Shown here piece by piece: positions 31,421-63,910 of a DNA stretch of 64,000 nucleotides. The DNA is from Lachnospiraceae bacterium (GTDB lineage Bacteria; Bacillota; Clostridia; Lachnospirales; Lachnospiraceae), in the NCBI GenBank assembly GCA_949383255.1, contig CASJPF010000008.1, positions 1 to 64,000 of the forward strand, in the 5' to 3' direction. The first letter of the stretch is position 1; each line of letters begins with the position of its first letter. The translations under genes were made by a program, and so were the position numbers. Under the pieces are notes generated by a model that was given only the letters and a program-made list of their open reading frames with translations, did no database searches and had not been told where the DNA came from.

Positions 31421-31458
31421 AACAAGAAAGAGGATGCATAAGCACCCTCTTTCTTGTT
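31421..31458. terminator. bidirectional terminator
   Basis: AACAAGAAAGAGG (31421-31433) pairs perfectly with CCTCTTTCTTGTT (31446-31458). It lies between the convergent ABC and GH20 genes and overlaps the GH20 stop codon. Confidence 0.75.
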
Positions 31459-33334
31459 AAGATAATCCTATCTCTTTTCTGCCTCGCAAGCAATCTGCAT
31501 ACCAAAATACAATCTCTGCAATGTGATGCAAATCACCCTCTTTGCTAACCGCACGCCACTGCTGCTTGTATGCCATAAACCAACGTTCCATTCGAGATGC
31601 CAGCCCACATGCCTGTGCCTCATCCCAGTTTTCTCCACGTTCCTTTACAGCAAGCATCGTTCCAACCATATTCCAGATTTGTATCGCCTCCACTGCAAGG
31701 TCAACCTCCGCAACAATTGGTCTAGTGTAGGAATCCATATTCGCAACGGTCTGTTTCATCTGGCGCATAACATCACACAACTTCTGGTTCGCTTGTGCAA
31801 TATCGTCTGCATTCTGCACAGCATCTGGAACTAACTTATCATTCTCTGGCGCATGATTTAACACATAGTTCTCATAAAATACATTTGCTGCCCACCAGTC
31901 AAATTTACTATAATTTGGAATCTGTGCCATTAATCCCACGAGCGCGCCAGAATGGTCGCCATATTCCAAACGCGAAATCTGTTCATTTATCTCATCAAAG
32001 CCTATCTCCAAAGGATTCCATGAGAAACATGCACCGTAAATGACACCCGGCACAGAAAATGCAGGATAGTTGACATGACCACAGTCACCCCAGTCGGTAT
32101 TGAGTATCCCTTCTGCGTGATATTTACGCGCATATCTGCACATTCTAGTAATATTTTTATAGGAATTTTCTATTAAATTCATCCATTGATTCCAACCACA
32201 GACACCAGGGCAAACATACTGTCTAGCGCCCGCTTCTGCCATGAGACGGCATTCCTCCTCGCGCTGTTCTGGCGCATAACCCCATGTCAGGCACAATGTA
32301 TTCTTAGGAAGTCTATTGATATAATCTGGATTCTTGCAGATTATATCTCCAAAAAACTGTGGCTGCTTTCCACGCTCTGTCAAAAAGACACATAGCTCGT
32401 TCACAAACCGAATATACATCTCATGAACACCATCACGCTCTGCTGTCTCCTTCGACTTCTCTTTGCCCAAATCAAACGTCTCATCAGCGCAAATATTAAA
32501 CTTGTCTGAAGTAAACAGCGCACCATACTCAGCAAGCATACTTTTAACCAATGTCAATGTTCTGTCATCGGTAACATTTAATGTGTGATGACGCATTCTG
32601 TCCCAGAAGGAGAAAGGCTCTTTCCAAGAATCCTTACGTTCACACAAATCGCCATAGCTCTTTGTAGACAAGAGCATATACAAATGGCCAAAGCTTGCCA
32701 ATGCCGGAACGAGCTCAACATGTCGTTCTTTGCAATAACGGTCCAGCTCCAAAATATCCTCCGATGTCAATGGTGTCTCATCACGCCACATCTCTGTCAA
32801 ATCACGGAACAAATATGTATGCTCCACATAGAGCTGAAATTGATTCATTTTATAGCGGCTGATACGGTCCACCATACGCTTTAATCCATCAAGTGTTAAT
32901 ACACGGCCTCGTGTCTCGTCAAAGAAGTACCCGCGAGCCTTAATATCTGGCGCATCTGTAATTTCCACACATGATATCATACCGCCGCTCTGCGCCGCAA
33001 TCTGCCCCAATGTCTGTACTCCGTAAAGCACCGCTGCGCCATCACCTCCCGCAATCACAATTCCATTTTTTGTCACGGATAGATGATACGCTTGCGCTTC
33101 AAGCGCGGTATCCTTTTTCAACACAATGTCCCCTGCACGACCCACACCTCTTGTCACCGCACAAGTAATCCCTGTTGCTTGCTGTAGATTATCCCGCAGA
33201 ATCGTAGCGTAAACAGTTCCATGCTCCTCTGCTGTGTCTCCAATCTCGCTGTCAACCGCAATGACACAATTCCAGCTCAGTTCATAAAATCCCTCTTTTT
33301 CTTCTACTTGTCTTGGTTTTGGCAGTATATCCAT
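31457..33334 (-). CDS. GH20-like beta-N-acetylhexosaminidase, cytoplasmic
   Basis: A 625-residue protein. The N-terminal GH20b-type domain (AQAYHLSVTKNGIVIAGGDG, then LYGVQTLGQI) leads into a catalytic barrel. The Asp-Glu catalytic pair is D284-E285 in NICADETFDLG, a variant of the usual GGDEV motif. The C-terminal ~150 residues are helical. The enzyme should remove terminal beta-GlcNAc or GalNAc. There is no signal peptide, so the substrate must be imported. It ends the run GH29-GH3-GH130-GH20, suggesting trimming of GlcNAc antennae or of the chitobiose core. Exact specificity is not readable. Confidence 0.85.
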   Translation of the reverse strand: MDILPKPRQVEEKEGFYELSWNCVIAVDSEIGDTAEEHGTVYATILRDNLQQATGITCAVTRGVGRAGDIVLKKDTALEAQAYHLSVTKNGIVIAGGDGAAVLYGVQTLGQIAAQSGGMISCVEITDAPDIKARGYFFDETRGRVLTLDGLKRMVDRISRYKMNQFQLYVEHTYLFRDLTEMWRDETPLTSEDILELDRYCKERHVELVPALASFGHLYMLLSTKSYGDLCERKDSWKEPFSFWDRMRHHTLNVTDDRTLTLVKSMLAEYGALFTSDKFNICADETFDLGKEKSKETAERDGVHEMYIRFVNELCVFLTERGKQPQFFGDIICKNPDYINRLPKNTLCLTWGYAPEQREEECRLMAEAGARQYVCPGVCGWNQWMNLIENSYKNITRMCRYARKYHAEGILNTDWGDCGHVNYPAFSVPGVIYGACFSWNPLEIGFDEINEQISRLEYGDHSGALVGLMAQIPNYSKFDWWAANVFYENYVLNHAPENDKLVPDAVQNADDIAQANQKLCDVMRQMKQTVANMDSYTRPIVAEVDLAVEAIQIWNMVGTMLAVKERGENWDEAQACGLASRMERWFMAYKQQWRAVSKEGDLHHIAEIVFWYADCLRGRKEIGLS

Positions 33335-33410
33335 AATGCTTCCTCCTATATGATTTAAAAATCTTTATAATAAAAATCTCTGATAACAGCTAACGTTTTT
33401 GCTTTTCTTA

Positions 33411-34391
33411 CTACTCCATACTTGCCATTAAGCGGTCAACCGTTGTAAATGCCAAACCTGTAACAGTATCTGCGCATCCATAATAAATCGCAATCCTGCC
33501 TGTGGCAGCATCTGTCAAAGTCGCACATGGAAATACCACATTGGGCACATCTCCCATGCATTCATACAATTCATGCGGTGCCAAAATATAATTTCTTGTT
33601 CTCTTTAATACCTTCCACGGCTTTTCCAAATCTAGTAGTGCACATCCCATGCGATACACATAGCCGTTACAAGTGGTAATAACACCATGATAGATTAACA
33701 GCCATCCTTCATCTGTCTCAATTGGAACACTACCTGCACCAATTTTAGTACACTGCCATGCAGAGTAATCCCCTTTGATTGCTCCCATTACAAAGCGATG
33801 ACATCCCCAATATTTCAAATCAGGACTCTCGCTTAAGAAAATATCACCAAATGGTGTGTGTCCATTGTCACTTGGGCGACTCAACATATAGTAATTGCCA
33901 TCAATTTTTCGTGGAAACAGAACACCATTTCGATTAAATGGCAAAAATGCATTTTCCATCTGGTAGAATGTTTGAAAATCAAACGTATAACCTACCCCGA
34001 TTGTAGGATACTCATGGTATCCGTTACACCATGTAATATAATACCGATCCTCCAGAAAACAAACTCTTGGATCATAACGAAAATCACGCTTTGCCACCTC
34101 TGGGTCCGCACCCTGAAAGGTAATTGGGTCATCTGATATATCCCAGTGAAGTCCATCTTTACTAAATCCTACAAAAATATCCATGCTGATAGATTTGCTA
34201 TCGCAGCGGAACACCCCTGCATATCCATCTTGAAATGGAACCACTGCGCTGTTAAAGATACTGTTGGAATTTTTTGTTGCAAAGCGGTCAATAATTGGGT
34301 TCTTGTCATAGCGCCACACTGGCTGCTTACTGTCTGTTGGCGCCTCCTGCCACGGCATGTTGGGTAGATCTTTTCCTATTATTTTTGCCAT
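33411..34391 (-). CDS. GH130 beta-mannoside phosphorylase (Man-beta-1,4-GlcNAc type)
   Basis: A 326-residue five-bladed GH130 enzyme. The catalytic Asp lies near residue 107 in RYDPRVCF, with [18 protein letters not shown] and [19 protein letters not shown] as further family motifs. Length and motifs fit the subfamily that phosphorolyses beta-1,4-mannosides, in gut bacteria typically Man-beta-1,4-GlcNAc from N-glycan cores. The products would be mannose-1-phosphate and GlcNAc. It is cytoplasmic. The GH38 mannosidase and GH85 endoglycosidase later in the window supply exactly that disaccharide, which supports the assignment. Plant mannan oligomers are the alternative. GGAGGG precedes the ATG. 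Confidence 0.88.
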
Positions 34392-34449: not shown

Positions 34450-36588
34450 TTAGACATCAATTCCCAGTTTTTCAACTGTATGCCCTGTAAGTTGCGCACT
34501 TCTTTTATCTGGCTGCTGTCCTCCTATATAGATATTGTAATGACCGTTGCACAACTCTTTTTTTCCATTTTCGTTATATAACATAAATGCGTCTATGGGC
34601 AGATGCATTGTAATTGTCTGCTCCTCTCCCGCCTTTAGCGGTAGTTTCACAATATGCTTAAGCTGTCCATGCGGCATCTTAGAATGTTCTGCATGTACAT
34701 ACACCTGCACAGTCTCCACTGAGTCCATCATACCTACATTTTTCACTGTGGTTTGAATCTCTACCCCATTCTCTGTCAACGCATTTCCTGTTAAAAGCTG
34801 TGTGTCGCTATATGCAAATGTGGTGTAAGCCAGACCATAACCAAACGGATACAGTGCTTCCTGTTCCATATAACGATAGGTTCTGCCTGTCATTGCGTAG
34901 TCCTCAAAAGGTGGAAGCTCTTCTGTGGTCCGATAAAATGTAACTGGAAGTTTTCCCTCCGGTGACACATCTCCAAACAGTATTTGTGCAATTGCTTTAC
35001 CGCCTCTTGCACCTGGGTACCATCCTTGCAAAATCGCATCCAGATGTTGATCGGCCCACGTAATTGCATGTGCGCCCCCCGACAGCACAATCAATATTAC
35101 TGGTTTCCCGCTCTGTTTCGCGATTTCTAACAGTTCTTGCTGTACACCAGGCAAATTTAGATTTTGCTTATCGCCGCTTCCATACTCGTTTCCAGCATCC
35201 CCCTGTTCGCCCTCTACACTGGCGTCAAGACCCATCACAGCAATCACAACATCACTATCCGCGCACACTTGGCGCACCTCAGCAGCACGGTCATTTGCCT
35301 GCGCAAGTCCAGTAGTGCGGTCTTTATAAAGATGACCTCCCTCAGAATAAAGTACGCGCGCGCGGTCCCCCACATAATCCTGAATGCCCTCAAGCACTGT
35401 GATATAACGAGACGCAGTTCCTTCGTAATTGCCGACAAGCGCACGACGGTTATTTGCATTTGGACCAATCACACCAATTGTCTTTATTTTGGATAAATTT
35501 AATGGCAATGTCTGATTTTCGTTTTTTAGTAACACAACAGAGCGCCTTGCCACTTCCTCGTTCAACGCCTGCATCTCTTTAGAATCCACCACACTGAATG
35601 GAATCTTGTCAAATGGACTATCTTCTTTTTGGTCAAATACCCCCAGTTTCATCCGCGCCATAAAGAGATTGATAACCGCCTCATCAATACGAGACTCGTC
35701 TACAAGCCCTGCTCTTGCAGCCTGCACTAAAAATCCAAACGTCTTTCCGCAATTTAAGTCACATCCATTGTTCATTGCCATAGCGGCAGAGTCCATTGGT
35801 GTCGCCGTTACACAATGTCTTAGATGAAAGTCTTCCAACGCACCACAGTCGGACACTACATGTCCTTTAAATCCCCATTCATCTCGAAGAATGTCTATTA
35901 GTAATCGACGATTTCCACAACATGGAACGCCATCTATGCGATTGTATGCGCCCATTACCGCCTCAACTTTTGCCTCTTTCACACAAACCTCAAACGCTGG
36001 CAAATATGTTTCGCGTAAATCCTGTTCACTGACATGCACATCAAACGCATGGCGTACCTCCTCGGGACCACTATGCACCGCTACATGCTTTACGCACGCG
36101 GCTGTCTTGAGATACTTCTCATCATGTCCCTGCAATCCTTCCACATAACGCAGTCCCATGCGACCAGATAAATAAGGGTCTTCCCCTAATGTCTCTTGTC
36201 CGCGCCCCCAACGTGGGTCCCTAAAAATGTTAACATTGGGCGCCCAAAAGGTTAGTCCTTTATAAATATCTGTATCATTTCCCGCCTGTTGCATATTAAA
36301 TTTGGCACGTGCCTCGGTGGAAACAGCATCTCCTACTTTTTCCATTAAATTCTCATCAAATGTCGCCGCCATACCGATTGCCTGTGGAAACACTGTTGCT
36401 GTACCCGCTCTAGCAACTCCATGCAGCGCCTCGTTCCACCAATTATAGGCTTTAATTCCCAAGCGTTCTATCGCTGGAGACTGATTTTGTGTCTGTGCTA
36501 CCTTCTCTTCTAATGTCATCTGTTTTACAAGCTCTGTTGCGCGTTCCCGATACGCTTTAAGCTTCTCTTCATTTTGGTTTAGTTCCAT
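34450..36588 (-). CDS. GH3 beta-glycosidase, cytoplasmic
   Basis: A 712-residue GH3 enzyme: TIM-barrel with nucleophile Asp247 (HVVSDCGALEDF), substrate loop NIFRDPRWGRGQETLGEDP, the second alpha/beta domain, and a C-terminal fibronectin III-like domain (TVKNVGMMDSVETVQVY). The SDCGA form resembles beta-xylosidase/beta-glucosidase members rather than NagZ. There is no signal peptide. In this operon it may remove beta-xylose, as in plant-type N-glycans, or beta-glucose; context alone does not decide. GGAGG precedes the ATG, 32 bases after GH29. Confidence 0.9.
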   Translation of the reverse strand: MELNQNEEKLKAYRERATELVKQMTLEEKVAQTQNQSPAIERLGIKAYNWWNEALHGVARAGTATVFPQAIGMAATFDENLMEKVGDAVSTEARAKFNMQQAGNDTDIYKGLTFWAPNVNIFRDPRWGRGQETLGEDPYLSGRMGLRYVEGLQGHDEKYLKTAACVKHVAVHSGPEEVRHAFDVHVSEQDLRETYLPAFEVCVKEAKVEAVMGAYNRIDGVPCCGNRRLLIDILRDEWGFKGHVVSDCGALEDFHLRHCVTATPMDSAAMAMNNGCDLNCGKTFGFLVQAARAGLVDESRIDEAVINLFMARMKLGVFDQKEDSPFDKIPFSVVDSKEMQALNEEVARRSVVLLKNENQTLPLNLSKIKTIGVIGPNANNRRALVGNYEGTASRYITVLEGIQDYVGDRARVLYSEGGHLYKDRTTGLAQANDRAAEVRQVCADSDVVIAVMGLDASVEGEQGDAGNEYGSGDKQNLNLPGVQQELLEIAKQSGKPVILIVLSGGAHAITWADQHLDAILQGWYPGARGGKAIAQILFGDVSPEGKLPVTFYRTTEELPPFEDYAMTGRTYRYMEQEALYPFGYGLAYTTFAYSDTQLLTGNALTENGVEIQTTVKNVGMMDSVETVQVYVHAEHSKMPHGQLKHIVKLPLKAGEEQTITMHLPIDAFMLYNENGKKELCNGHYNIYIGGQQPDKRSAQLTGHTVEKLGIDV

Positions 36589-36619: not shown

Positions 36620-37912
36620 TTATTTCTCCGACATCATCCAGCCTTCTCCATGACCTAAATTATACGTAATTTCTCCTTCCAATTCAACTTTTAATACAGT
36701 TGCATAAGAATGCAGTTCCATGTCTTTTGCCCAAATCCATGCAGTTCCAGGAATACCACTCCACGGCAGAGAACCTGTGTAAGTAACTTTAAGCTCCTCC
36801 CCTGTATGTAACACACTAACGCGGCGAATTGGTGTTTTAATTCCTTTCAGACACAATGCCTCCTGCGGTCTGTCATAGACAAAAAGATAAAGTGTTTGCT
36901 TGTCTGCTGAAATTGTGCTTCCACCCAAAAACTGATGGTAACTCAGCCCTTTTGTTGTGCCATATACCGCTTCTTTGTTATCATCAATCCAATTGCCAAG
37001 TTCTGTGAGCACATACTCTTGGCGCTCATCAATTGTGCCGTCTTCGCGTGGTCCAATATCCAGCAGCATCCTTCCACCCAGTGTAATACAATCACAGAAC
37101 ATGCGCACAATCTGTCCTGGTGTCTTGTATTCATTGTCAGAAGGTCTGTAGCCCCAAGAATCATTGATTGTTGTGCAGAACTCCCACTCGCCATCTAACC
37201 CATAAATAGGAATGCCCTGTTCTGGTGTCTGATAATCCCCGTAACCTTGCATTCTTGAGTTTAGCACCACATTTGGGTTTAACGTGTGTAGATACTCCCG
37301 AAATTCTGGCATTTTCCACTGTTTAGGACTTCTCTCCCAGTCACCGTCAAACCACAATAAATCAACTGTGCCATATTGTGTCATTAATTCCTTTAACTGA
37401 TTGTTATTAAATTCAAGAAACCGCTCCCACTGTTCCGGTTCCTCATCTTTTCCTGCGGGCGATCCATAAATATCATCAAGACTCTCCTCTTTTGTCTTTC
37501 CCTCTGGATAAACACTGCGATAGCGTGGGTCCGACCAGTCAATCAAAGAATAATACAAACCAACTTTAAGACCTTCCTCCTGCAATGCCTGTGTGTACTC
37601 TCGCACCAAATCCCGCGCCGCTGGCGTCTTTTTCACAACATTCAGGTCACTATACTTTGTGTCAAACAATGCCACACCGTCATGATGCTTTGTCGTCATG
37701 ACCGCATACTGTGCACCTGCTTTCTTAAACAATTTTGCCCAACTGCGCATATCCAACTTAGACGCAGTAAAACCTTCGCACTGTTTCATATAATCTTCAT
37801 AAGAAATCGCACCGTTATGAAAAGACCATGACTCGGAAACATCTCCTACTGCATAAATTCCATAGTGAATAAAAATTCCCAGCTTTGCATCTCGAAACCA
37901 CTGCTGCATCAT
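36620..37912 (-). CDS. GH29 alpha-L-fucosidase 1, cytoplasmic
   Basis: A 430-residue GH29 enzyme. It opens directly with the barrel (WFRDAKLGIFIHYG). Substrate residues include TTKHHDG (His76-His77) and nucleophile Asp189 in LLWFDGDW. The C-terminal half is beta-rich. It removes alpha-linked L-fucose. No signal peptide. With the importer upstream and GH3/GH130/GH20 downstream it probably defucosylates imported host glycans. A promoter with TTGCTC-18-TATAAT lies just upstream on the minus strand. Confidence 0.92.
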   Translation of the reverse strand: MMQQWFRDAKLGIFIHYGIYAVGDVSESWSFHNGAISYEDYMKQCEGFTASKLDMRSWAKLFKKAGAQYAVMTTKHHDGVALFDTKYSDLNVVKKTPAARDLVREYTQALQEEGLKVGLYYSLIDWSDPRYRSVYPEGKTKEESLDDIYGSPAGKDEEPEQWERFLEFNNNQLKELMTQYGTVDLLWFDGDWERSPKQWKMPEFREYLHTLNPNVVLNSRMQGYGDYQTPEQGIPIYGLDGEWEFCTTINDSWGYRPSDNEYKTPGQIVRMFCDCITLGGRMLLDIGPREDGTIDERQEYVLTELGNWIDDNKEAVYGTTKGLSYHQFLGGSTISADKQTLYLFVYDRPQEALCLKGIKTPIRRVSVLHTGEELKVTYTGSLPWSGIPGTAWIWAKDMELHSYATVLKVELEGEITYNLGHGEGWMMSEK

Positions 37913-38131: not shown

Positions 38132-39784
38132 CTACTCAATAATATTTGTAATACCGCGAATCTCAAGGTATTTGGAAAGTCCAAGGCCTTCAAATCCGTC
38201 TTTGTAAGCCTGCCAAGCCGCATCATCATCCACATCCTGCTCACCAGAGATAAACAATGCCTGCTGCTGTCTAAAATAATCGTCAATTGCAGTCTTATAC
38301 TCAGAATAAATTTCAACAGAATCCTGATCGACCCAAATTGACTCTACAACGTCCTTGGTCAAATATGGCTCATAAAATGTTTCAACTGCTTTCTTCTCAT
38401 CATAAAGTGGCTTATCTTCAACTGGCTTCCATCCAATTGGTGTATATTTTGGCAAAGACTGTGGCCACAGATTAGACCAGCTAACCTTTTCCTGTGTCTC
38501 AGCATCCAGAGTCTTTATATCGATTCTGCGATATGCATACTCATCTCCGCCCTCTTCTTTAAAGCATACAAGACCTACAGGTCCTACAGTACAACCAATA
38601 CCATTTTCAAACGCAAACGCATTGTCAAACCATCTTGCAATAATCTCAGGATGCTCTGCATTATCTGTGATAACTGCCTGTGTTCTGTAAACAGAGTTTC
38701 CAAGTGTCGCTCTTAACCACTTTCCACCTTTGTCTGCATTTAGAACAGGAAGGGGATCATATGGGGGTTTCTCCTCTGTCTGCTCAATTCCTGAAAATTC
38801 ATTGGAACCATATGCAATGGATACACCATACATATCTCTATTGCCTTTTCCTTCCCATGTTGCAGAATCCTGTGTAAAGATTTCTGTGTCAATCAGTCCC
38901 TGCTCATACAGTTTGTTGAGCCAGCTCAAGCACTCTCTATACTGTGAACTAATACCTGCGTAGGCATTCTCACCATCCACAACTGTAATCGCCTCTTTTG
39001 ACATAGGCATACCAAAGTATCCTGCCATCGCTTCCAAAGATTTATTATTTGGATCAGTTGAGAATGGAATTTCATCATTCGGGTCACCATTTCCGTTTGC
39101 GTCCTGCGCTTTAAATGCCTTCAAAACTTCCTCAAATTCATCTGTGGTAGTTGGCATCTCCATATTGACATTCTCCAACCACTTGCTGTTAATATAGGGA
39201 GTATAGTTTACTGTGGTATCGCCACATACATAAGGAATCGAGTAAATATGGCCATCTGGTGCAGTCATCTTCTCTCGCACACCGGGAAGATCCAAAATTG
39301 CAGAGATATTTGGACAATACTGCTCAAAAATATCCTCAAGTGGAATAAACACGCCCTGCTCCACACCGTAGGTAAGAATCATCGAGTCAGACAAAGTCCA
39401 GCCGCCGAGCACATCTGCATAGGAACCTGAGTTTAATGCTAGATTCAACTTCTCTGTTGCGTTCTCATAAGCATTAATCTGCAATTCAACGTCCACATTG
39501 GTCTGTTTCTTAAGCTCATCTAACATATAGAACTCACCTGTAGCACTTGAGTCGTCACAGAAAATAGAAAAGCTGTATGTGCCCTCGTCTACAATTGGAA
39601 GTCCCTCTGCATACATAATGCCATCAACTTTTCCGTCTGCATCCACTTCCTTTGGTGCCGCAGTTGTTGTAGAATCGGAACTGTCCTTTTTGTTAGCACT
39701 GGTATCACCACTACCTCCGCAACCTGCAAGTGTTGTTCCACACACTGCTGTTATCAGCAACATTGCCACTAACTTTTTCTTCAT
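38132..39784 (-). CDS. sugar ABC transporter substrate-binding lipoprotein (LplA-like)
   Basis: A 550-residue extracellular solute-binding protein. It has a lipoprotein signal with lipobox TLAGC and Cys22, an Asp/Ser/Thr-rich linker, and a large binding fold with a calcium-like loop DANGNGDPNDEIPFSTDPNN. Length and following permeases fit the LplA/YtcQ class that binds oligosaccharides. It captures the glycan outside the membrane and passes it to the two permeases upstream in the operon. No ATPase gene is nearby; these systems commonly share MsmK-type ATPases. AAGGAGGATATAT precedes the ATG. Confidence 0.92.
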   Translation of the reverse strand: MKKKLVAMLLITAVCGTTLAGCGGSGDTSANKKDSSDSTTTAAPKEVDADGKVDGIMYAEGLPIVDEGTYSFSIFCDDSSATGEFYMLDELKKQTNVDVELQINAYENATEKLNLALNSGSYADVLGGWTLSDSMILTYGVEQGVFIPLEDIFEQYCPNISAILDLPGVREKMTAPDGHIYSIPYVCGDTTVNYTPYINSKWLENVNMEMPTTTDEFEEVLKAFKAQDANGNGDPNDEIPFSTDPNNKSLEAMAGYFGMPMSKEAITVVDGENAYAGISSQYRECLSWLNKLYEQGLIDTEIFTQDSATWEGKGNRDMYGVSIAYGSNEFSGIEQTEEKPPYDPLPVLNADKGGKWLRATLGNSVYRTQAVITDNAEHPEIIARWFDNAFAFENGIGCTVGPVGLVCFKEEGGDEYAYRRIDIKTLDAETQEKVSWSNLWPQSLPKYTPIGWKPVEDKPLYDEKKAVETFYEPYLTKDVVESIWVDQDSVEIYSEYKTAIDDYFRQQQALFISGEQDVDDDAAWQAYKDGFEGLGLSKYLEIRGITNIIE

Positions 39785-39819: not shown

Positions 39820-40749
39820 CTAGCCTTTCACAGAACCAATCATAACACCTTTTACAAAATGCCGCTGGATAAACGGATACAATACCAGCACTGGAATACT
39901 ACTTATGATAATGAGCGAGTATTTCATAACCTCAATGAGTTCCTTCTTTTCATTGAGCGCTGCTCTTGCCTCTGCTGTTGTCGCCGCCTGTTGCAGTGCA
40001 GACTCATTTGTAATCAAAATACTTCTCAATACGAGCTGCAATGGATATTTATTCTGATCAGACAGATAGATCAAACCAGAAAAATATGAGTTCCAATGGC
40101 CTACACCATAATACAGAACCATAATTGCGGTAATCGCACCGGACAGTGGTAACGCAATCTGGAAGAAAAACCGTCCTTGTGTACAGCCATCAATCTCCGC
40201 CGCTTCATAAAGCTCCTCTGAAATATTGGTCTTAAAGAAAGTTCTCGCCACAATCATGTTATATACGCTTAGACATCCCGGAAGAATCAAAGCCCACATC
40301 GTATCAAGTAATTTTAAATTTTGTACTACTAAATATGTAGGAATCAAACCACCACTAAAGAACATGGTAATTACATAAAACATTGTAATAACTTTCTTGC
40401 CTGAAAATTTATCTCTTGAGAGCGCATACGCAGTGGGAAGTGTTACAGCTAAATTTACCAGCACACCACATACCGTGTACAACACAGAGTTTAAGAAGCT
40501 TCGCACAACCGAGTCATCCTTAAATACCTCTGCATATCCCTTTAGTGTAAAACCGATTGGGTGCCAAATTACTTGACCACCAGACACAGCTTTGGGATTG
40601 CTGACAGAAGAGATAATAACCCACCAGAGTGGATACGCGACAATCAAAAGCAAAATTGTTAAGATAATAAAGATGACTGTATCAAAAATCACATCTTCTT
40701 TGCAACGTTTGATTTTGGATTCAACTTCCACTTCTTTTTCTTTTTTCAT
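39820..40749 (-). CDS. sugar ABC transporter permease (LplC-like)
   Basis: A 309-residue integral membrane protein with about six spans, of the MalG/LplC group. The EAA loop that contacts the ATPase is EAAEIDGCTQGRFFFQIALP. The final segment RHFVKGVMIGSVKG is a hallmark of this group. It lies 14 bases after the partner permease and 35 before the binding protein. GGAGGG precedes the ATG. Confidence 0.93.
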   Translation of the reverse strand: MKKEKEVEVESKIKRCKEDVIFDTVIFIILTILLLIVAYPLWWVIISSVSNPKAVSGGQVIWHPIGFTLKGYAEVFKDDSVVRSFLNSVLYTVCGVLVNLAVTLPTAYALSRDKFSGKKVITMFYVITMFFSGGLIPTYLVVQNLKLLDTMWALILPGCLSVYNMIVARTFFKTNISEELYEAAEIDGCTQGRFFFQIALPLSGAITAIMVLYYGVGHWNSYFSGLIYLSDQNKYPLQLVLRSILITNESALQQAATTAEARAALNEKKELIEVMKYSLIIISSIPVLVLYPFIQRHFVKGVMIGSVKG

Positions 40750-40763: not shown

Positions 40764-41720
40764 TTAGAATAGGCTTGTTCCGGACATCTTATCCGCAATC
40801 TTGTTGACAATTATCAGCATGACCATATTAATCAAAGTATTAAACAGACCTATCGCCGAAGAGTAGGACATATTGTTATCGATCAAACCGACTTTATACA
40901 CGTAGGTAGAAATAATTTCCGATACAGAAAGGTTCAGGTCATTCTGCAAAGCATATGCCTTCTCAAAGCCAATAGACAAAATGCTGCCGCAACTTAAAAT
41001 GAGCTGAATTGTCGCTGTTGGAAGAATAGACGGAAAATCAATATAACGAATAATTTGGAATTTCGTCGCACCGTCACATTTTGCTGCCTCATGTAACTCT
41101 GGACTGATCCCAGACAATGCAGCAAAGTAAATAACGGAACTCCACCCCATGCCTTGCCAAATACCGGACCATACATACAGATGTCGCCAATATTCCTTCT
41201 TCGCCATAAAGTTGACTGCATCACCGCCGAACATCTTAATCACTGTATTAATAATACCAACGCTCGGAGACAGAAACAGAATCAACATACCACACATAAC
41301 AATGGTGGAAATAAAGTTGGGTGCATATGTAACGGTCTGGATGACTTTTCGGTAGCGTTTGTGCCGAAATGCATTCAGCATCAAAGCCAAAATAATCGGA
41401 ATTGGAAATGAAACCAGCAGACCATATAGACTCAAAATCAGTGTGTTTGTGATTGTGCGTCCAAAATACGGAGATTCTATAAATCGCTGAAAGTAACGCA
41501 GACCCACCCAAGGACTTCCCCAAATTCCTTGCTTCGCATTAAAACGCCGAAATGCAATCTGCACACCATACATTGGAATATAGCTGAAAATAAATGTCAG
41601 AATAATTCCTGGCACACAGAACATATAGAGAGACGCATCTTTCTTAATCGTCTCAACGAGACTGCGCTTTTTGGTTGGAATAGCTGGTTGATTTAAACTT
41701 TTGGTTGTTTTGGTTTTCAA
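40764..41720 (-). CDS. sugar ABC transporter permease (LplB-like)
   Basis: About 318 residues with six membrane spans, MalF/LplB group. The first span follows KKDASLYMFCVPGIILTFIF, and the EAA loop is HEAAKCDGATKFQIIRYIDF. The open frame starts at 41753, but AGGGGTGATTAT directly precedes TTG 41720, which I take as the start. It is the first gene of the importer operon; a LacI-like operator and TATAAT box lie upstream. Confidence 0.92.
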   Translation of the reverse strand: MKTKTTKSLNQPAIPTKKRSLVETIKKDASLYMFCVPGIILTFIFSYIPMYGVQIAFRRFNAKQGIWGSPWVGLRYFQRFIESPYFGRTITNTLILSLYGLLVSFPIPIILALMLNAFRHKRYRKVIQTVTYAPNFISTIVMCGMLILFLSPSVGIINTVIKMFGGDAVNFMAKKEYWRHLYVWSGIWQGMGWSSVIYFAALSGISPELHEAAKCDGATKFQIIRYIDFPSILPTATIQLILSCGSILSIGFEKAYALQNDLNLSVSEIISTYVYKVGLIDNNMSYSSAIGLFNTLINMVMLIIVNKIADKMSGTSLF

Positions 41721-41782
41721 ATAATCACCCCTCTGCTCTTTAAAGCGTAACACTAAGTTACTTTTGTTAATAGTTTCATGTT

Positions 41783-44952: not shown

Positions 44953-44988
44953 TATAATCCTTTCTGAAATCATTCTATCATTTTATTT

Positions 44989-55992: not shown

Positions 55993-56126
55993 GTTACAAT
56001 TCAGCCTTGCCGAATTGTAACGCAACAAGCTATGCAAAATCGCTACGCGATGGCTTGTTGCATCTCAACCACTATGTTTTCTTACGGAATTAGCAGTAAA
56101 TGCAAAGTCCTAGACTGAACTGTAAT
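55993..56126 (+). mobile_element. miniature element, copy D
   Basis: GTTACAATTCAG to CTGAACTGTAAT, flanked by a perfect duplication GTGACTCA (55985-55992 and 56127-56134). The middle stem is GCAACAAGC/GCTTGTTGC, a compensated version of GCATCAAGC/GCTTGATGC in copy A. In the right stem the 5' arm has changed to GGAATTAGCA. Confidence 0.88.
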
Positions 56127-56345: not shown

Positions 56346-57323
56346 CTATTCACCAGCGCCAAGCACAAGGCCTGCCGCCCCAATCATTCCTGCGTTATTT
56401 CCATTCTGAGCGATCACAACCTTTGGAATGTAGGTAACTTCACTGCCAAAACAATTTTCCTGTAAAAATTCGTTGAGCGGTTTTGTAAGTTTCTCACCCT
56501 GCGCGCACACACCGCCGCCAAGTACAATAATATCTGGCCGAAAAATATTTGCAAGGTCCGTAATGCCATCCGCCAGATAACCAATATAATGTTCCACCAA
56601 TGTTTTGCCGCAACTGTCACCAGCATCCGCCGCGTCAAATGGAATCTTCGCATTCATTGTCTCCAAATCATGACCACACAACTCCCACAAAAGTGATTCT
56701 GGGTGCTGTTCTGCAAGTTTCTTTGCATCTTCAATCAGCGCCGTTGCGGACGCATATGCTTCCAGACAATCATATCTGCCGCAAGTACATCTGCGTCGCT
56801 GTGAACCACCTTTGATATGTCCCAACTCCGCACCTCCAGAATGTCCGCCTTCAAATATCTTTCCATCAATTACAATTCCACCGCCAACTCCGGTTCCAAG
56901 TGTTAGAAAAATTGCATTTTGGTATCCTTTTGCCGCCCCTTTTAACACTTCACCCAGCGTCATACAGTTCGCATCATTTTGAATATAGACTGGAACTGGA
57001 AGGTACTGTTGTAGTGTCTCCGAAAAAGGAACATGGTCCCAACGTATATTATTTGAATATAACACAACTCCATTCTTACTGTCAATAATACCCGGACTTC
57101 CCACACCAACACCACGACAATCGGATAGTGCATACCCATTTTCTGTTAAAAGTGTGGCTGCTGTCTTTCCAATATCTGCTATAATCTCTTCATATGGCCG
57201 CTGCGCATTTGTCGGTATTGATGTCTGCGCCAAAATTTCATAAGATGTATCTAGGATTCCCATTTTTACAGCGGTTCCTCCAAGGTCAATTGCAATGACT
57301 ACCTGTTTTTTATTGTCTGACAT
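56346..57323 (-). CDS. ROK family sugar kinase (glucokinase-like)
   Basis: A 325-residue ROK kinase: ATP loop AIDLGGTAVKMGILD, catalytic Asp118 in QNDANCMTLGE, TLGTGVGGGIVIDG, and the zinc motif with His169 (GAELGHI) and CTCGRYDC cysteines 179, 181 and 186. It phosphorylates glucose or a related hexose. It follows the GH85 gene by 52 bases, so mannose, GlcNAc or glucose from glycan breakdown are likely substrates. A strong hairpin in the gap may tune its level. GGGGGATGA precedes the ATG. Confidence 0.9.
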   Translation of the reverse strand: MSDNKKQVVIAIDLGGTAVKMGILDTSYEILAQTSIPTNAQRPYEEIIADIGKTAATLLTENGYALSDCRGVGVGSPGIIDSKNGVVLYSNNIRWDHVPFSETLQQYLPVPVYIQNDANCMTLGEVLKGAAKGYQNAIFLTLGTGVGGGIVIDGKIFEGGHSGGAELGHIKGGSQRRRCTCGRYDCLEAYASATALIEDAKKLAEQHPESLLWELCGHDLETMNAKIPFDAADAGDSCGKTLVEHYIGYLADGITDLANIFRPDIIVLGGGVCAQGEKLTKPLNEFLQENCFGSEVTYIPKVVIAQNGNNAGMIGAAGLVLGAGE

Positions 57324-57375: not shown

Positions 57376-60270
57376 CTATTCTAATGTTTCCTCTAAACCA
57401 AAAACTTCTACCTCATAGATACGCGCTGCACTGTCACTTCCCTGTGTTGGTTTATTTACCACAAGTTTGACAAACTGTGCTTGAACTGGAGCAAACGCGT
57501 CATGAGTTGTTCCCGCTGTATTTCTCGTTACACTGCGCACTTCCTCAAAAGATGCACCGTCTTCGCTAGTTAAGATTGCGTAAGATTTCGTGTTCATATC
57601 TGCGCTCTCTCCGCCTGCCTCTGCATGATACACATCCACTGCGCTGACAGTCTTTACAGAACCAAGGTCCAAAGTAATCTCATGTGGTGCACTTCCTGTA
57701 GCACACCATTTCTTTGTGTAATCGCCGTCTACTGCAAACTGTGGCGCCTCATTATCATTGACATAGGTATCTGCTTCTGTGCCAGCACCTTGTGAGAGCA
57801 ATACAAGACCTTCTGAAGCTTTCTCTGTGATAACAATGTAGCCTTCTTTTGATGCCTCACTGCTGCCAGACGCATTCTCTGCCTTAATAGAAACTGCATA
57901 GACACCCGCTTCTGGGTATGTCACAGACACACTGTTCCCCTCTGCGGTCTCTGTGTCTGATCCAGTCAAGGTCCAAGTTACTTTCTGTGTATTCTGTGAG
58001 CACAAGCTCTCAAATGTAATTGTTTCTCCCGGTGCTGCCAGTGTAATATCTGCTGTAAATGCAGCCTTTGGAATGCTGTTGTCCGGCCAATCCATTGTCA
58101 CAGTCGCGCCAGTACCTTCAACCAGTAATTTATTCACTGGAATTACTTCAAATGTAGACTTATTTGTCTCGTCTGTACGCGGTAATGTGTTGATGTAAAA
58201 ACTATCTGTATTTGATACACCTAACAATGATTTTGTTTGGTCCTGATTAATGCGATATACTTCATAGTAATCTGACGCAACATCGCTATCCCATGAAAGA
58301 CGCACGCCTGCGTACATTCCATCTTCATCAAACTCACTGTCAAGCACTTGTACATTGCTAACAGTCGCTGTCTGCACTGTATCTGCCTCAATCATTGTAA
58401 TATTTCCAAAACGGAACTGTAAAGAACTGCCGTCTGCATCTGATGTCAATCTGTAGGAAATTGTTTTGATTGTCTTTCCTGCAAGGTCCGCGGTCTGATA
58501 GTTCACAGTTGTCCATTCATCTACAACCTTTTTATCACCCTCAAGTACCAGCTCAGAACCGTCATCCAAGGTCAACACTGCATCCAGTGCAACCTCTGCC
58601 CCCTTTGCCCGAGCAGTCGTTGTAAAAGTCATTTTGTCAGAGACCGGCATATCTGCACTGTACATCTTAATGGTGGAAGGTACGCCCTGCTTTACAGTAC
58701 CGCGCAAAATCATGCTGTTGCCACCATAATATGCATCGCCTATATCAAGGTCCGCTGCCAGCTTATTGCCCTCGCCATCCTCAATAATATAGCGATAGGT
58801 TGGAAGCACATCAGAAATACTACGATTGTTCCAGTCAAGCATACTGATTAGCTCTCCATTTTTATAAAAACCGTAACCATTTCCTGTAGAGAAATTTGTC
58901 ACAAATGGAAGTTCTGTGAGCGCAGTACGCTCCACAACATAAGTCGATACACCTCGCCAGTCTGTATTTTCTGTCGCTTTCACATCTGCGGAAGGATCTC
59001 CTGCTCCATTTACCCACAGTTTATTTTCTTTTTTCCAGAAATCTTGCACCATCTGGGAAGAAAAATATGCCCAACTTGGACAGTAAACTCCCAAGGAAGT
59101 ATAGGTTCCACCATCTGGGTTTTCAAATAAATCCCATTTGATTGGTGTGTCATAGCCATTGCTTTGTATATCAACTCCTGCGTACAAATCATATGGATCA
59201 ATCTGCTTTTCTGCCGCCAATTCTGCGGAAGTTTTTAACAGCTCTTCCGGCGCAAGGGTATCCGTTGTCCACCAGAAATTTAGGAACATGGAATCTGCTA
59301 CATCAGCGCCTTCTTCCGACTTCAAATAAGCTGCATTCTCTTCTGTCAATGCATTCTGCCAGTCCATCTCACCATCCACTGTCATAGAATCATAGTACAC
59401 CAGTTCTAACTCTGGTGCCTTCTCTTTATAATAAGCGAGAAATCCCTGCATCAAATCTGCATGTTCTTTTGTCAATGGTGCCTCGTCTGTTCCTTCTGTC
59501 TCCTGATTAATAAACCACCCATCAAATCCATATGTATTTGCCACTTCAATCAGTTTATCCACAACTGGAAAACTGCCATCCTCTGTCTGTTGTAACAAAT
59601 CATCAAGCCACTCCGTCTTTCCGCCATGTGCTGCCTGCGGCATAAACACAGTGCCAATTACCTTTACGCCGTTCTTGTGCCCAGCATCCACTACATCAGG
59701 GCTAGGAGCAACAATCAATCCCTCACCAGAAGAACCACCCCAGTACACCAGTGTGTCAACATACTGCCAGTAGGTAAAAGCGTTGGACTCCGCCTTATTC
59801 AATCCATGTGGAGAATTTCCGCTTGTACTGCCATTCATAATAGAGATAGACATCACTTTTGTCTCTTTATTCTGCGTAGAATTTACAGTTTCAAGAGAAG
59901 CAATGTCAGCGCGCTCTGCAAGTGGCACAGTACTCACATTAAAAATTAAATCCTCATCCTCTGCGGCTTCCCACTCCAATAATTGCGCTGGAAACCAATA
60001 GGAAGCCTCAGGCTGGCGTGTCATTGTAAGTTCTTTATTCTCATTCTCTCCAGTCACAGAATACTTTGTGGTCTCTGATGTGGCTGGCGGTGCCTCTGTT
60101 TCCGGTGTCGCCGCTGCTTCTGAATTTGCCTCTGTCTGAACCGGCTCCTGCGATGCGGCTGGCGGTGTATCCTGCCCTTTATTGCCTCCACAAGCCGCTA
60201 GGCTAACCATCATCGATGCCACCAGAAGAATACTCATTATTTTCTTCCCATATATTTTTTTTCGTATCAT
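57376..60270 (-). CDS. GH85 endo-beta-N-acetylglucosaminidase, surface lipoprotein
   Basis: A 964-residue protein. Lipoprotein signal with lipobox SLAAC and Cys27, then a Pro/Glu/Thr-rich spacer to ~75. The GH85 barrel spans about 85-430, with catalytic Asn255 and Glu257 in DGWFINQETEG, plus QYVDTLVYWGGSSGEGLIV and GTVFMPQAAHGGK. Beta-sandwich and fibronectin/PKD-like domains follow (about 440-820, TWTLTGSDTETAEG), and a C-terminal F5/8 discoidin (CBM32-like) domain (about 835-960, WCATGSAPHEITLDLGSVKT). GH85 enzymes cut the chitobiose core of N-glycans. Anchored outside, it would release glycans for the importer. The ribosome site is weak, but later ATGs would lose the signal's charged head. 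Confidence 0.93.
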   Translation of the reverse strand: MIRKKIYGKKIMSILLVASMMVSLAACGGNKGQDTPPAASQEPVQTEANSEAAATPETEAPPATSETTKYSVTGENENKELTMTRQPEASYWFPAQLLEWEAAEDEDLIFNVSTVPLAERADIASLETVNSTQNKETKVMSISIMNGSTSGNSPHGLNKAESNAFTYWQYVDTLVYWGGSSGEGLIVAPSPDVVDAGHKNGVKVIGTVFMPQAAHGGKTEWLDDLLQQTEDGSFPVVDKLIEVANTYGFDGWFINQETEGTDEAPLTKEHADLMQGFLAYYKEKAPELELVYYDSMTVDGEMDWQNALTEENAAYLKSEEGADVADSMFLNFWWTTDTLAPEELLKTSAELAAEKQIDPYDLYAGVDIQSNGYDTPIKWDLFENPDGGTYTSLGVYCPSWAYFSSQMVQDFWKKENKLWVNGAGDPSADVKATENTDWRGVSTYVVERTALTELPFVTNFSTGNGYGFYKNGELISMLDWNNRSISDVLPTYRYIIEDGEGNKLAADLDIGDAYYGGNSMILRGTVKQGVPSTIKMYSADMPVSDKMTFTTTARAKGAEVALDAVLTLDDGSELVLEGDKKVVDEWTTVNYQTADLAGKTIKTISYRLTSDADGSSLQFRFGNITMIEADTVQTATVSNVQVLDSEFDEDGMYAGVRLSWDSDVASDYYEVYRINQDQTKSLLGVSNTDSFYINTLPRTDETNKSTFEVIPVNKLLVEGTGATVTMDWPDNSIPKAAFTADITLAAPGETITFESLCSQNTQKVTWTLTGSDTETAEGNSVSVTYPEAGVYAVSIKAENASGSSEASKEGYIVITEKASEGLVLLSQGAGTEADTYVNDNEAPQFAVDGDYTKKWCATGSAPHEITLDLGSVKTVSAVDVYHAEAGGESADMNTKSYAILTSEDGASFEEVRSVTRNTAGTTHDAFAPVQAQFVKLVVNKPTQGSDSAARIYEVEVFGLEETLE

Positions 60271-60398
60271 AATTTTGTGTCTGCTACTAAAAATATATAC
60301 AAAAGTGTATATACTAGATGATTCGCCACAATCTCACGATTTGTGGTTACTGTTTCAACGTGTATGCTTTCATAATTGTATCAATATACTACTCACAA

Positions 60399-60418
60399 GT
60401 TCGATGTGTTTATCGAAC
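60399..60418 (-). promoter_or_regulatory. operator-like inverted repeat upstream of GH85
   Basis: GTTCGAT (60399-60405) and ATCGAAC (60412-60418) are perfect 7-base arms with a 6-base spacer, about 130 bases before the GH85 ATG on the minus strand. It is a candidate site for one of the LacI-type regulators. Confidence 0.4.
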
Positions 60419-60500
60419 ACATTGTACACTCCACAGTCGTAAATTCCCGACTAACCATCGGTACATACCTATAAATCCTTTTCTTGATTCATATAGGTTC

Positions 60501-60814: not shown

Positions 60815-63800
60815 TCATACGAGTTTTACAGTCACCACTTCGTATGGTTTCAACACCACTTCAATCTGCTTGCCTGAAACAGACGCCTCACATTCTGTCT
60901 CCTCAAGCAAGTTACAAATAAATGCTTTTTTGAAATCCGCATTTACAGTCAATTTTGTCTTGGTATAAGCATTCTCTGACTCGTACATACGAATAACTGT
61001 TCCTTCTCCGTCTTCAGCGCGTTTGATTGTCTCAACAATAACATTTGCATTTGAGACAGACGCATAAGAAAATGCATCTAACGCTTTCGCCTGCGATTGT
61101 ACCAACAACGGCTGATTGAGCTTATATGCCTCCGCAACAGTTCCCGCAGCGCGCCATCCTTCTGCGTGAGGATAAATTGCATAGATAAAATCATGCTCTT
61201 CTTGGTCTGTTGTTGGATTTGGCTCAATTCCTGATTTAATCAGCGTAAGTGCCATATTTGCATCTTTTACAGAATGCCCATATTTACAATCATTTAAGAG
61301 TGATACACCATAATGGCCTTCTGACAAATCCATCCATTTCTGTCCGCAACTCTCAAAACGCGCAACATCCCAGCTTGTATTCTGATGTGTCTTTCTTGTC
61401 AAGTTACCAAACTGCACATCAAATGTCGCTTCATCTGTATGCACAGCCACTGGAAAATGTACTTTTAACAGAGTTTGATGTTCCTTCCAATCCACATGTG
61501 TCACAAAATCAATTCTGCGGCTGTCCGCATAGAAAACGATTTTTTGCTGAATGGTAGACTGTGACGCTTTTCTAGTAATATCAAGCACTGCACGCACTGT
61601 ACCAATCTCTGTCCATTCCATGTGCTCCACATTGTCTATATCCCAAAACTTCTCTGTATAATAAATATCAATGTCCCAGTTGTCAAAATAAATTGGCTTA
61701 TCTTCATACATGCGCAATAGATTTGCACGCTGTCCTTCCTGTATCACTTCACGATCATTCTCCTTGTCATAAATACTGGTAAACATTCCCTGATCGTCAA
61801 GTTTTATTGTATAGAATGGTGTCTCCAACTGATGGACGCCAACCAGTGTAAACGGTGCCTTATCGTCTGCGCCGTTTGCTGTATCGCTCACATGGAATGA
61901 CTTATAGCCCTTTGACGGCAGACTGCGCACAAATGCGATATTTCCATCTGTAGTCTTTTGAATAGGATATACTGTTCCGTCTGTATCAATTAATGCACTT
62001 CCTTCCAAAGCACCTAGATTTACAATATCATCTCTTATCTGACCTGTAGTATTAAAGATAGTAACTGCGTCTCCCTCTCCAGCAATTGCTTTTCTGCGCT
62101 GTGCGGTCATCTCTGCAAGCTGCGCTGCAAGCGCATCATATTCTTTCTTTGTCACCTCATAAACTTCATGAATCGAAGACCCGGGCAGAATATCATGGAA
62201 CTGATTTAACAGTACAACCTTCCACATTGCATCCAAATCTTCCTGCGGATACCCCATTGTCTCCTGTGTCAAAACAGACAACAATTCTAAATCCATCAAT
62301 CCCAGTTCGGATTTACGATTAGAACGTTTGTTTCTCGCCATAGAAGTCAGTGTGCCTCTGTGGTACTCAAAATATAATTCTCCTTCCCACACTGGAAGAC
62401 GCTTGTTGTCGCCAACGCGCTCCTTTAATTCGTCAAAATAAGTACGTGCAAATTCTTGGCGCACCTTGGGAATTCCCTTCACTCCTTTTTCCATACGAAT
62501 AGAAGTCTCAAGCATCTCTCTCGTTGGGCCGCCGCCGCCATCACCATAACCGTAAGAAATCAAAATATCATTGTTAATATCTTTGTTCTGATAGCGCATC
62601 CATCCACCCATAATTGCATCTGGGTGAAGCATTCCATTGTATGTTGTGAAGAAATCCTTAATTGGCTGATTTACTCCCAATGTTGTAATTAAGTGTGTCA
62701 ATACTTCTGAGCCATCAATTCCTCTCCACATCATTGTATCATATGGAATTTTATTAAACTGATTCCATGCCAGCTTGGTGGTCATAAAATAGTCAATTCC
62801 GCACTTTTTCATAATCTGTGGCAATGCACCAGAATATCCAAACACATCTGGCAGCCATAGAATCCGATTGTCCACGCCAAACTCTTGTTTAAAAAAGCGC
62901 TTGCCATGCATAAACTGACGCACCAGAGACTCTCCAGAAGTCAAATTGCAGTCCGCCTCAACCCACATGCCGCCTTCTGGCTCCCAGCGTCCTTCTTGAA
63001 TGCGCTCTTTTGCCTTCTCATAAAGTTCAGGATAGCGCTCTTTTAAAAAGGCGTACAACTGTGGCTGACTTGACATAAATCTATAATTCGGATACTCTTC
63101 CATCAATTTCAGCACTGTCGCAAAGCTTCGCCCTGTCTTTTCCCTTGTCTGTGCAACAGTCCACCACCAAGCAACGTCAATATGTGTATGTCCAATACAA
63201 GTCGCAATCACATCCTGATACCCTGCCATATCAGAATACAATGCCTTGTCAATATAGTCAGATGCTTGCTGTAAAGTACGATAAAACTCCTCGGAGTACG
63301 GTGTGCGCAAATCCAGATAATTAATGGTATTATTCAAAATTTCCAAAATATCCTTGCGGTTCTTGTCATCCTCTTCCATTCTGGAAAACGCTGCAAGAGG
63401 AACCCACAAATCATAGTAAAGTTTTTCTATCAGCGCATCAATTTCCTGCATCTCTACAATTAGATTAAATTCTTTGTGCAGGATTCCGGTATAAGACTGA
63501 AGACCTATCTCCAATGTATCTTTGGCTTTTGCGGCTGTCGATAACAATACATCGCGGTGATTCATATCAATTCCTTGAATGACTTCCCCGTTTACAAACA
63601 ATAAAAACTGTGGATTTTTTGCGTCGTCCCACTCGTCAATCTGCGTGCGGACATGAAGCCACATGCGCTTCCCGTCCAATTCCTGCGGCACCTGATAAGT
63701 CGTCTTAAACCAATAATGACGATCTTTTCCATACCAATGCATATTCTGACAGTCAAATTTTTCCCATGCTGTAGTGTCTGCCTCGGCTTCCTCTGGGCGA

Positions 63801-63910
63801 ATAAAATTCCCTTCCTTATACATCCAGTTATCAATCACAAATTTCTGCTTCACTTTTAATTTTTTGAGTTCCTCGCAGATCACGTTAACCCTTTTGTCTA
63901 AAAAATGCAT
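60815..63910 (-). CDS. GH38 alpha-mannosidase, cytoplasmic
   Basis: About 1031 residues. An N-terminal beta domain (~1-230) precedes the GH38 barrel with zinc ligands in GHTHIDVAWWW (His241, Asp243-245 region) and nucleophile Asp355 in WLPDVFGYSG. A three-helix segment and C-terminal beta-sandwich domains follow. It removes alpha-linked mannose from imported glycans. No signal peptide. ATG 63910 follows GGAGGG; the upstream ATG at 63922 overlaps that site and is not the start. With GH85 and GH130 it completes an N-glycan mannose route. The upstream part of its operon lies beyond the window. Confidence 0.94.
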   Translation of the reverse strand: MHFLDKRVNVICEELKKLKVKQKFVIDNWMYKEGNFIRPEEAEADTTAWEKFDCQNMHWYGKDRHYWFKTTYQVPQELDGKRMWLHVRTQIDEWDDAKNPQFLLFVNGEVIQGIDMNHRDVLLSTAAKAKDTLEIGLQSYTGILHKEFNLIVEMQEIDALIEKLYYDLWVPLAAFSRMEEDDKNRKDILEILNNTINYLDLRTPYSEEFYRTLQQASDYIDKALYSDMAGYQDVIATCIGHTHIDVAWWWTVAQTREKTGRSFATVLKLMEEYPNYRFMSSQPQLYAFLKERYPELYEKAKERIQEGRWEPEGGMWVEADCNLTSGESLVRQFMHGKRFFKQEFGVDNRILWLPDVFGYSGALPQIMKKCGIDYFMTTKLAWNQFNKIPYDTMMWRGIDGSEVLTHLITTLGVNQPIKDFFTTYNGMLHPDAIMGGWMRYQNKDINNDILISYGYGDGGGGPTREMLETSIRMEKGVKGIPKVRQEFARTYFDELKERVGDNKRLPVWEGELYFEYHRGTLTSMARNKRSNRKSELGLMDLELLSVLTQETMGYPQEDLDAMWKVVLLNQFHDILPGSSIHEVYEVTKKEYDALAAQLAEMTAQRRKAIAGEGDAVTIFNTTGQIRDDIVNLGALEGSALIDTDGTVYPIQKTTDGNIAFVRSLPSKGYKSFHVSDTANGADDKAPFTLVGVHQLETPFYTIKLDDQGMFTSIYDKENDREVIQEGQRANLLRMYEDKPIYFDNWDIDIYYTEKFWDIDNVEHMEWTEIGTVRAVLDITRKASQSTIQQKIVFYADSRRIDFVTHVDWKEHQTLLKVHFPVAVHTDEATFDVQFGNLTRKTHQNTSWDVARFESCGQKWMDLSEGHYGVSLLNDCKYGHSVKDANMALTLIKSGIEPNPTTDQEEHDFIYAIYPHAEGWRAAGTVAEAYKLNQPLLVQSQAKALDAFSYASVSNANVIVETIKRAEDGEGTVIRMYESENAYTKTKLTVNADFKKAFICNLLEETECEASVSGKQIEVVLKPYEVVTVKLV

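Follow-up and report, generated by a model that had tools for sequence, protein, structure and literature searches.

The window, as it is called here, comprises the initial 64,000 bases of a contig of 110,737 bases from a Lachnospiraceae bacterium (draft genome of 4.38 Mb, 86.4% complete, 6.85% contamination). It carries a gene locus that begins at about 31.4 kb, reaches the window end at 64.0 kb and seems to run on to about 70.4 kb of the contig. With a probability of roughly 0.55, this locus, including some 6 kb beyond the window, is a system for the utilisation of N-glycans and N-glycopeptides with two import branches, one supplied by a surface endo-beta-N-acetylglucosaminidase of glycoside hydrolase (GH) family 85 and the other taking up short N-glycopeptides. 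The most interesting part of the locus is a set of genes around an 804-aa transglutaminase-fold protein, much of which is found again in Lachnospirales, Paenibacillus, Cohnella and Caldicoprobacter. A preliminary description of the window had proposed one release-import-degrade pathway for N-glycans. This reading is partly supported and incomplete: the N-glycan assignment holds, on account of the GH85 lipoprotein, a GH130 enzyme near UhgbMP, a GH38 enzyme and an NgtS-like importer, while the single pathway with a single importer does not, as the contig has two importers.

Two importers on one contig

The two ATP-binding cassette (ABC) importers are of different type, and each has its own GH130 copy beside it. 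The GH130 proteins (a and b) are 88% identical, the LacI-type regulators LacI1 and LacI2 are 67% identical, and the solute-binding proteins SBP1 and SBP2 are not alike. The in-window importer had been taken for the N-glycan one, but the best PDB matches of its SBP1 are 5g5y-type chains (7.9e-49), presumably pneumococcal SP_0092, and not NgtS. The NgtS-like importer lies past the window end, directly upstream of GH38, in a group of GH130b, SBP2, LplC2 and LplB2 with a divergent LacI2. SBP2 matches NgtS (5swa) across residues 55-505 at 2.2e-46, with Trp81 of the two ligand tryptophans kept and Trp386 replaced by Tyr; the NgtS entries 5SUO, 5SWA and 5SWB and the ligand roles of tryptophans 81 and 386 are given in the part of PMC5215778 drawn on here.

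The NgtS-like importer as partner of GH85 is supported because genome G100 joins them in two runs, GH38-GH85-SBP2-LplC2-LplB2 (GH85 in two frames) and GH85-GH130-SBP2-LplC2-LplB2 (L189, L193). Of 12 places with a strong GH85 (E below 1e-40), 4 hold a permease most like those of the NgtS-like importer, 4 hold one most like those of the in-window importer, and 4 hold none in the stretch. The ROK kinase adjoins GH85 in three further loci (L183, L184, L185). GH130a matches UhgbMP best (1.6e-148), against 4.6e-141 for mannooligosaccharide phosphorylase 5ayd, so that by nearest sequence it is of the UhgbMP type, with a putative preference for Man-beta-1,4-GlcNAc (GlcNAc, N-acetylglucosamine).

Gene content

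Family calls are Pfam matches above the gathering score among the 29 window proteins scanned, and signal peptides were judged by a crude hydropathy scan and by reading N-termini by eye. The features are as follows; L002 denotes a stretch of the same contig reaching past the window end.

L002:6317-7357 (contig 69316-70356): LacI2, paralogue of LacI1
L002:2302-5762 (1.3-4.8 kb past the window end): NgtS-like SBP2 (contig 65301-66824) with ABC permeases LplC2 and LplB2; NgtS match
60815-63922, minus: GH38 alpha-mannosidase, 1035 aa, no signal peptide (Pfam GH38 N-terminal, middle and C-terminal domains; nearest PDB entries are Ams1 chains)
57376-60270, minus: GH85 endo-beta-N-acetylglucosaminidase lipoprotein with GH85_C, PKD and F5/8C domains (Pfam 7.6e-89; LAAC lipobox)
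56346-57323, minus: ROK sugar kinase (Pfam ROK 8.1e-69)
50429-51436, plus: LacI-type regulator LacI1, divergent from the run headed by the transglutaminase-fold gene (Pfam)
47288-49702, minus: transglutaminase-fold protein, 804 aa, cytoplasmic, candidate Asn-GlcNAc amidase (Pfam Transglut_core, two stretches)
46243-47259, minus: GH18, 338 aa, no signal peptide, DGVDLDWE motif (Pfam 1.1e-68)
45191-46210, minus: CBM9-domain protein (Pfam)
43519-44973, minus: GH29 alpha-L-fucosidase b (Pfam 5.2e-84)
41975-43402, minus: M17 leucyl-type aminopeptidase (Pfam 3.5e-99)
40764-41753, minus: ABC importer permease, LplB type (1) (Pfam)
39820-40749, minus: ABC importer permease, LplC type (1) (Pfam)
38132-39784, minus: lipoprotein SBP1, 5g5y type, proposed N-glycopeptide binder (Pfam, PDB match)
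36620-37912, minus: GH29 alpha-L-fucosidase a (Pfam 7e-89)
34450-36588, minus: GH3 with Fn3-like end, no signal peptide (Pfam)
33411-34391, minus: GH130 mannoside phosphorylase a, nearest UhgbMP (Pfam, PDB match)
31457-33334, minus: divergent GH20 beta-hexosaminidase that lacks a signal peptide and shows an Asp-Glu pair in its sequence (Pfam)

From 49702 to 31457, 12 co-directional genes run in the order transglutaminase-fold, GH18, CBM9, GH29b, M17, LplB, LplC, SBP1, GH29a, GH3, GH130a and GH20, with LacI1 divergent at the head; upstream lie GH38 and the GH85-ROK pair, interleaved with two PfkB kinases and an HtrA protease. Every family that the preliminary description listed (GH85, GH38, GH130, GH20, GH18, two GH29, GH3, ROK) is present, as is its importer. 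Its surface GH85 is borne out by the lipobox, and trimming in the cytoplasm fits, as a lipoprotein-type start is found on GH85 and the solute-binding proteins and none on the other listed glycosidases, both in-window GH29 enzymes included. What that list left uncounted are the transglutaminase-fold, CBM9 and M17 proteins, though they recur beside such enzymes elsewhere.

Several assignments can be refined. GH29a matches 6gn6 (5.8e-79) far above AlfC (5e-33) and chains named alpha-1,3/4-fucosidase (3.8e-12). The closest entries to GH18 are chitinase 5gzu (3.4e-143, two stretches) and N-acetylglucosaminidase 6inx (1.5e-105), which makes it a candidate chitobiase-like beta-N-acetylglucosaminidase with chitinase relatives. 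The top NCBIfam match of the ROK kinase is a ROK glucokinase subfamily, under that model's cut-off. Just upstream of GH85, at 60347-60437 on the minus strand, there is a RAGATH-18 RNA candidate (45.7 bits; gathering score 44.9). Just past LacI2 lie genes for a GntR regulator and for another GH38-like protein, which is divergent and 795 aa long (L002:7409-9796).

From these genes we infer the following scheme. In the first branch, the surface GH85 would cut the chitobiose core and release a chain that keeps one reducing GlcNAc; this chain would enter through the NgtS-like importer, lose its alpha-mannose to cytoplasmic GH38, and end in phosphorolysis of Man-beta-1,4-GlcNAc by GH130b and phosphorylation of a product by the ROK kinase. 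In the second branch, the 5g5y-type importer would take up short N-glycopeptides with the chitobiose core still on asparagine (Asn), the peptide being trimmed by M17, core fucose removed by GH29 and other decorations by GH3 and GH20. Hydrolysis of the Asn-GlcNAc amide would then fall to the transglutaminase-fold protein, for which CBM9 would be the partner that binds the glycan, after which GH18 would split the chitobiose and GH130a would finish on Man-GlcNAc. The paralogous LacI regulators may control the two branches.

Recurrence of the transglutaminase-fold gene set

The glycopeptide branch is suggested because the in-window type of importer recurs with GH18, CBM9, GH29, M17 and the transglutaminase-fold protein. 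Of 196 surveyed genomes of the order, 24 have a relative of the 804-aa protein at E 0.001, and in 21 the match is strong (E below 1e-60). Named genomes contain at least 587 matching stretches; among the best 80 of these, the closest relative is from an uncultured Eisenbergiella sp. (L054; 51% identity in the best segment). Neighbourhoods were compared for 20 loci (first set), for these 80 loci, some of which end at contig edges, and for 20 control regions at fixed, hand-picked, non-random positions in 8 genomes. Neighbours were labelled by phmmer with window and neighbour proteins, rather than by Pfam except where Pfam is cited. Given as first set/named/control, partner counts were GH29 9/30/1, CutC 8/25/0, SBP1 6/18/0, GH18 8/15/0, CBM9 8/13/0, M17 9/12/0 and GH130 7/1/0.

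After removal of 3 duplicates recognised between the two sets and 3 loci without a called gene, 94 of the 100 loci were analysed. At least one of GH29, GH18, CBM9, GH130, GH38 and GH85 occurs in 44/94 against 1/20 controls, and at least three in 16/94; M17 or CutC occurs in 39/94 against 0/20 controls. Either partner group is found in 64 loci and neither in 30. In three genomes, CBM9 and the transglutaminase fold share one frame of 1160-1161 aa, with CBM9 first in the one checked for order. Paenibacillus brevis (L062) has the order LplB-LplC-SBP1-GH29-GH18-transglutaminase-GH85, its GH85 bearing S-layer domains, and Niameybacter massiliensis (L102) has a transglutaminase-fold locus with GH18, M17, GH29, CBM9, GH130 and GH38. 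Both are cultured, as is Lachnospiraceae CE91-St56 (L057), in which a large share of the set is likewise present.

The loci include two non-overlapping kinds, one marked by two or more of SBP1, GH18 and CBM9 (22/94) and one by CutC or an oligopeptide importer (33/94). An oligopeptide importer signature is present in 7/94 loci and no control; CutC accompanies it in 5 of the 7, GH29 in 3, and none of the partners sought in 1. Mapped on a tree, some of whose nodes have weak support, the first kind shows 9 changes, whereas shuffling gives a mean of 19.9 (lowest 15 of 500); on this ground it is inherited in part and was probably also assembled more than once. The link to GH85 is visible at the genome level too. 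A strong GH85 is present in 11/196 genomes (48/196 at E 0.001, mostly weak partial matches), a strong transglutaminase-fold relative in 21 and both in 8 (Fisher 5.9e-7, uncorrected for kinship, and with both strong cut-offs chosen after the tables had been seen). Moreover, a strong GH85 is found in 7/9 genomes with a locus of the first kind against 1/12 other strong carriers (p 0.002).

CutC (PF03932) usually carries the label of copper homeostasis. It stands near transglutaminase-fold relatives in many loci (L035, L037, L038, L073, L074 and others), often with M17, GH29 or oligopeptide importers, and may act in the same sugar-peptide pathway.

The transglutaminase-fold protein

The 804-aa protein consists of an N-terminal domain, a 3e8v-like beta domain, a second transglutaminase-like stretch, which looks degenerate, and a C-terminal thioredoxin-like domain. 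Catalytic-type Cys131 and His164 are invariant in 97/97 aligned sequences. In a PDB search with a profile of 17 relatives, the 82-residue fragment 3e8v came first (3e-16), followed weakly by peptide:N-glycanases (PNGases; 2f4m 0.0037, 1x3w 0.049, 3esw 0.053) and then 3isr (0.29). Hydrolysis of the Asn-GlcNAc bond by this protein, taken alone, is possible rather than probable. Bolder, and slightly more tentative, is the proposal that this widespread cytoplasmic family is a missing bacterial counterpart of NGLY1 and glycosylasparaginase, which would cut imported N-glycopeptides at Asn-GlcNAc with a Cys-His-Glu triad, Glu standing for Asp, as part of a cytoplasmic, lysosome-like route in gut Firmicutes.

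Two observations weigh against such an activity. The PNGase Asp, which is catalytic, corresponds to Gly179 in 97/97 sequences, with an invariant Glu182 close by. In addition, because the thioredoxin-like end swamped the whole-protein fold search, a separate prediction was made for the N-terminal domain with 60 of the 97 aligned sequences; PNGases are among the fold matches of this domain but under transglutaminases by Z, and a PNGase identity was not adopted. The top Foldseek E-value for this domain belongs to the putative cysteine protease 3isr. Together with the missing Asp, and with neighbours such as M17 in some loci and the oligopeptide importers, this would suit a cysteine peptidase or amidase whose target is not the Asn-GlcNAc bond but a peptide, either that of a glycopeptide or another one. 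Such a role is somewhat improbable: the CBM9 fusions and the company of GH29, GH18 and GH85 indicate that the substrate carries sugar, and PNGases rank first, if weakly, among full enzymes in the profile search.

Known enzymes for the amide step are sparse in these genomes. The glycosylasparaginase family PF01112 was above cut-off in 2/196 genomes, one of them a transglutaminase-fold carrier, and was not found in the genome studied here; the PNGaseA family was above cut-off in 0/196, with one weak match. A PNGase F-type search matched 0/196 genomes and no control genome either, and cannot be used as a sign of absence. A literature search, with subscription papers and preprints outside its scope and hence no proof of absence, returned no title or abstract opening describing a transglutaminase-like protein with N-glycan gene clusters.

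Alternative substrates and pathways

The N-glycans used may be of host or plant origin. It is unlikely that the GH29a-GH3-GH130a-GH20 part targets plant-type N-glycans, with GH3 taking off core beta-1,2-xylose. Bacteroides plant N-glycan loci do join GH29, GH3 and GH130, and a beta-1,2-xylosidase is known among their GH3 enzymes, according to the part of PMC9522356 used here. The GH3 orthologues of the present enzyme (55-65% identity), however, stand in mixed contexts, with GH38 pieces in 1 and an SBP2-type importer in 1 of 14 neighbourhoods, so that GH3 was dropped as proof of plant N-glycans. Furthermore, the sections of the review PMC10154615 relied on here hold that, as of 2023, plant N-glycans were not a described substrate of any GH85.

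Still less likely is a single pathway, as originally proposed, with GH85 outside, one importer, all cytoplasmic enzymes acting on its products, and the transglutaminase-fold, CBM9 and M17 proteins as bystanders. All listed enzymes are present, and GH38, GH130 and GH20 are nearly enough for GH85 products. Against this stand the two importers, which differ in type while their GH130 copies are nearly identical, and the co-recurrence, partly as fusions, of GH18, CBM9, M17 and the transglutaminase-fold gene in several lineages. Moreover, as GH85 cleaves between the two core GlcNAc (PMC10154615, same sections), its product would leave no chitobiose for GH18. Glycopeptides with intact chitobiose, entering by a second branch, would explain the cytoplasmic GH18, M17, GH29 and amidase, which the GH85 branch does not need. 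A locus for beta-mannan or mixed plant oligosaccharides, with GH85 and GH38 incidental, is very improbable, for although GH130a strongly resembles 5ayd too and a galactan unit lies next door, no mannanase family was above cut-off among the window proteins scanned, and GH85, the NgtS-like SBP, GH29 and GH18 fit N-glycans.

Comparison with known systems

GH125 belongs to the pneumococcal EndoD/NgtS-type system. Neither GH125 nor GH92, which is SpGH92 in Streptococcus pneumoniae, was found in the genome studied here (86% complete), whereas GH130 is present. A surface-anchored GH85 and an NgtS-homologous SBP with ABC permeases are common to both systems (PMC5215778, in part), and the locus here has an extra importer branch with GH18, GH29, M17 and the transglutaminase-fold protein.

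For the second branch, the closest worked example is, by analogy, the alf-2 pathway of Lactobacillus casei for fucosyl-GlcNAc-Asn, which the portion of PMC6960285 consulted describes with a fucosidase, a peptidase, a glycosylasparaginase and a kinase. Import of an Asn-linked sugar, a cytoplasmic GH29 fucosidase, a peptidase and a sugar kinase are shared, as predicted here from genes, whereas in the present genome the transglutaminase-fold protein is proposed in place of PF01112, import is by an ABC system and a larger glycan is expected.

The transglutaminase-fold protein itself resembles the PNGases NGLY1 and Png1 in fold, in catalytic Cys and His, and in GRCGE and ACE motifs; it differs in the Gly at the catalytic Asp position, in its extra beta, degenerate second and thioredoxin-like domains, in being bacterial and in being paired with or fused to CBM9. 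Lysosomal breakdown of N-glycoproteins proceeds through peptidase, GH29 core fucosidase, amidase, GH18 chitobiase, GH38 and then cleavage of Man-GlcNAc. The order of activities proposed for the second branch is alike, but would be cytoplasmic and bacterial, with an amidase of another fold and phosphorolysis replacing beta-mannosidase. UhgbMP-type GH130 enzymes are N-glycan mannoside phosphorylases; here, two copies occur, one per importer, in an importer-based context. Bacteroides plant N-glycan loci have the GH29, GH3 and GH130 combination in common with this locus (PMC9522356, in part), whereas no SusC/D is found among the window proteins scanned.

Bacterial N-glycan use is covered mainly through Bacteroides, Bifidobacterium and Streptococcus in the consulted sections of PMC10154615, and the present locus adds a concrete Gram-positive example, putatively with two import branches. 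Through it, a widespread, uncharacterised transglutaminase-fold family becomes linked to N-glycan catabolism, and how such bacteria handle the Asn-linked stub and whole glycopeptides could be tested directly on a single purified protein. If that protein does cut Asn-GlcNAc, it would also be useful for glycoprotein analysis.

Regulation, repeats and neighbouring DNA

The preliminary description had counted two LacI-type regulators in the span, which contains LacI1 only; two more lie elsewhere on the contig, LacI2 and one at 23647-24660 in the galactan unit next door (19518-27322: LacZ-type GH2, AraC, this LacI, GalT and GH53). A scan for palindromes with central CG and a shared-word scan of upstream regions found no motif common to the units. 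The strongest shared upstream word was dropped as a regulator site because it is part of a dispersed repeat of about 120 bp that matches the genome 43 times, counting the repeat itself. Intergenic copies lie at 50160-50280, 52836-52955 and 56023-56124, and the longer copy is bounded by inverted AACAGTTCAG/CTGAACTGTT. The repeat looks like a miniature inverted-repeat transposable element or a repetitive extragenic palindromic-like element. A 17-bp palindrome inside it is not over-represented at 2 mismatches (14 matches against 10.8 expected; 4 against 3.6 in L002).

An ABC exporter pair adjoins GH20 (27714-31411); upstream of the pair, at 27395, is the 18-bp palindrome TGCGCAACCGTTTGCGCA, with 8 of 9 pairs by script count. 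The pair may belong to the system, because counterparts lie near a transglutaminase-fold cluster of the uncultured Lachnospiraceae isolate Lapin-001 (L101:15894-19632). Downstream of the locus, at L002:13829-17150, genes for an acyltransferase-alanine racemase fusion and a D-Ala-D-Ala ligase recall cell-wall precursor clusters.

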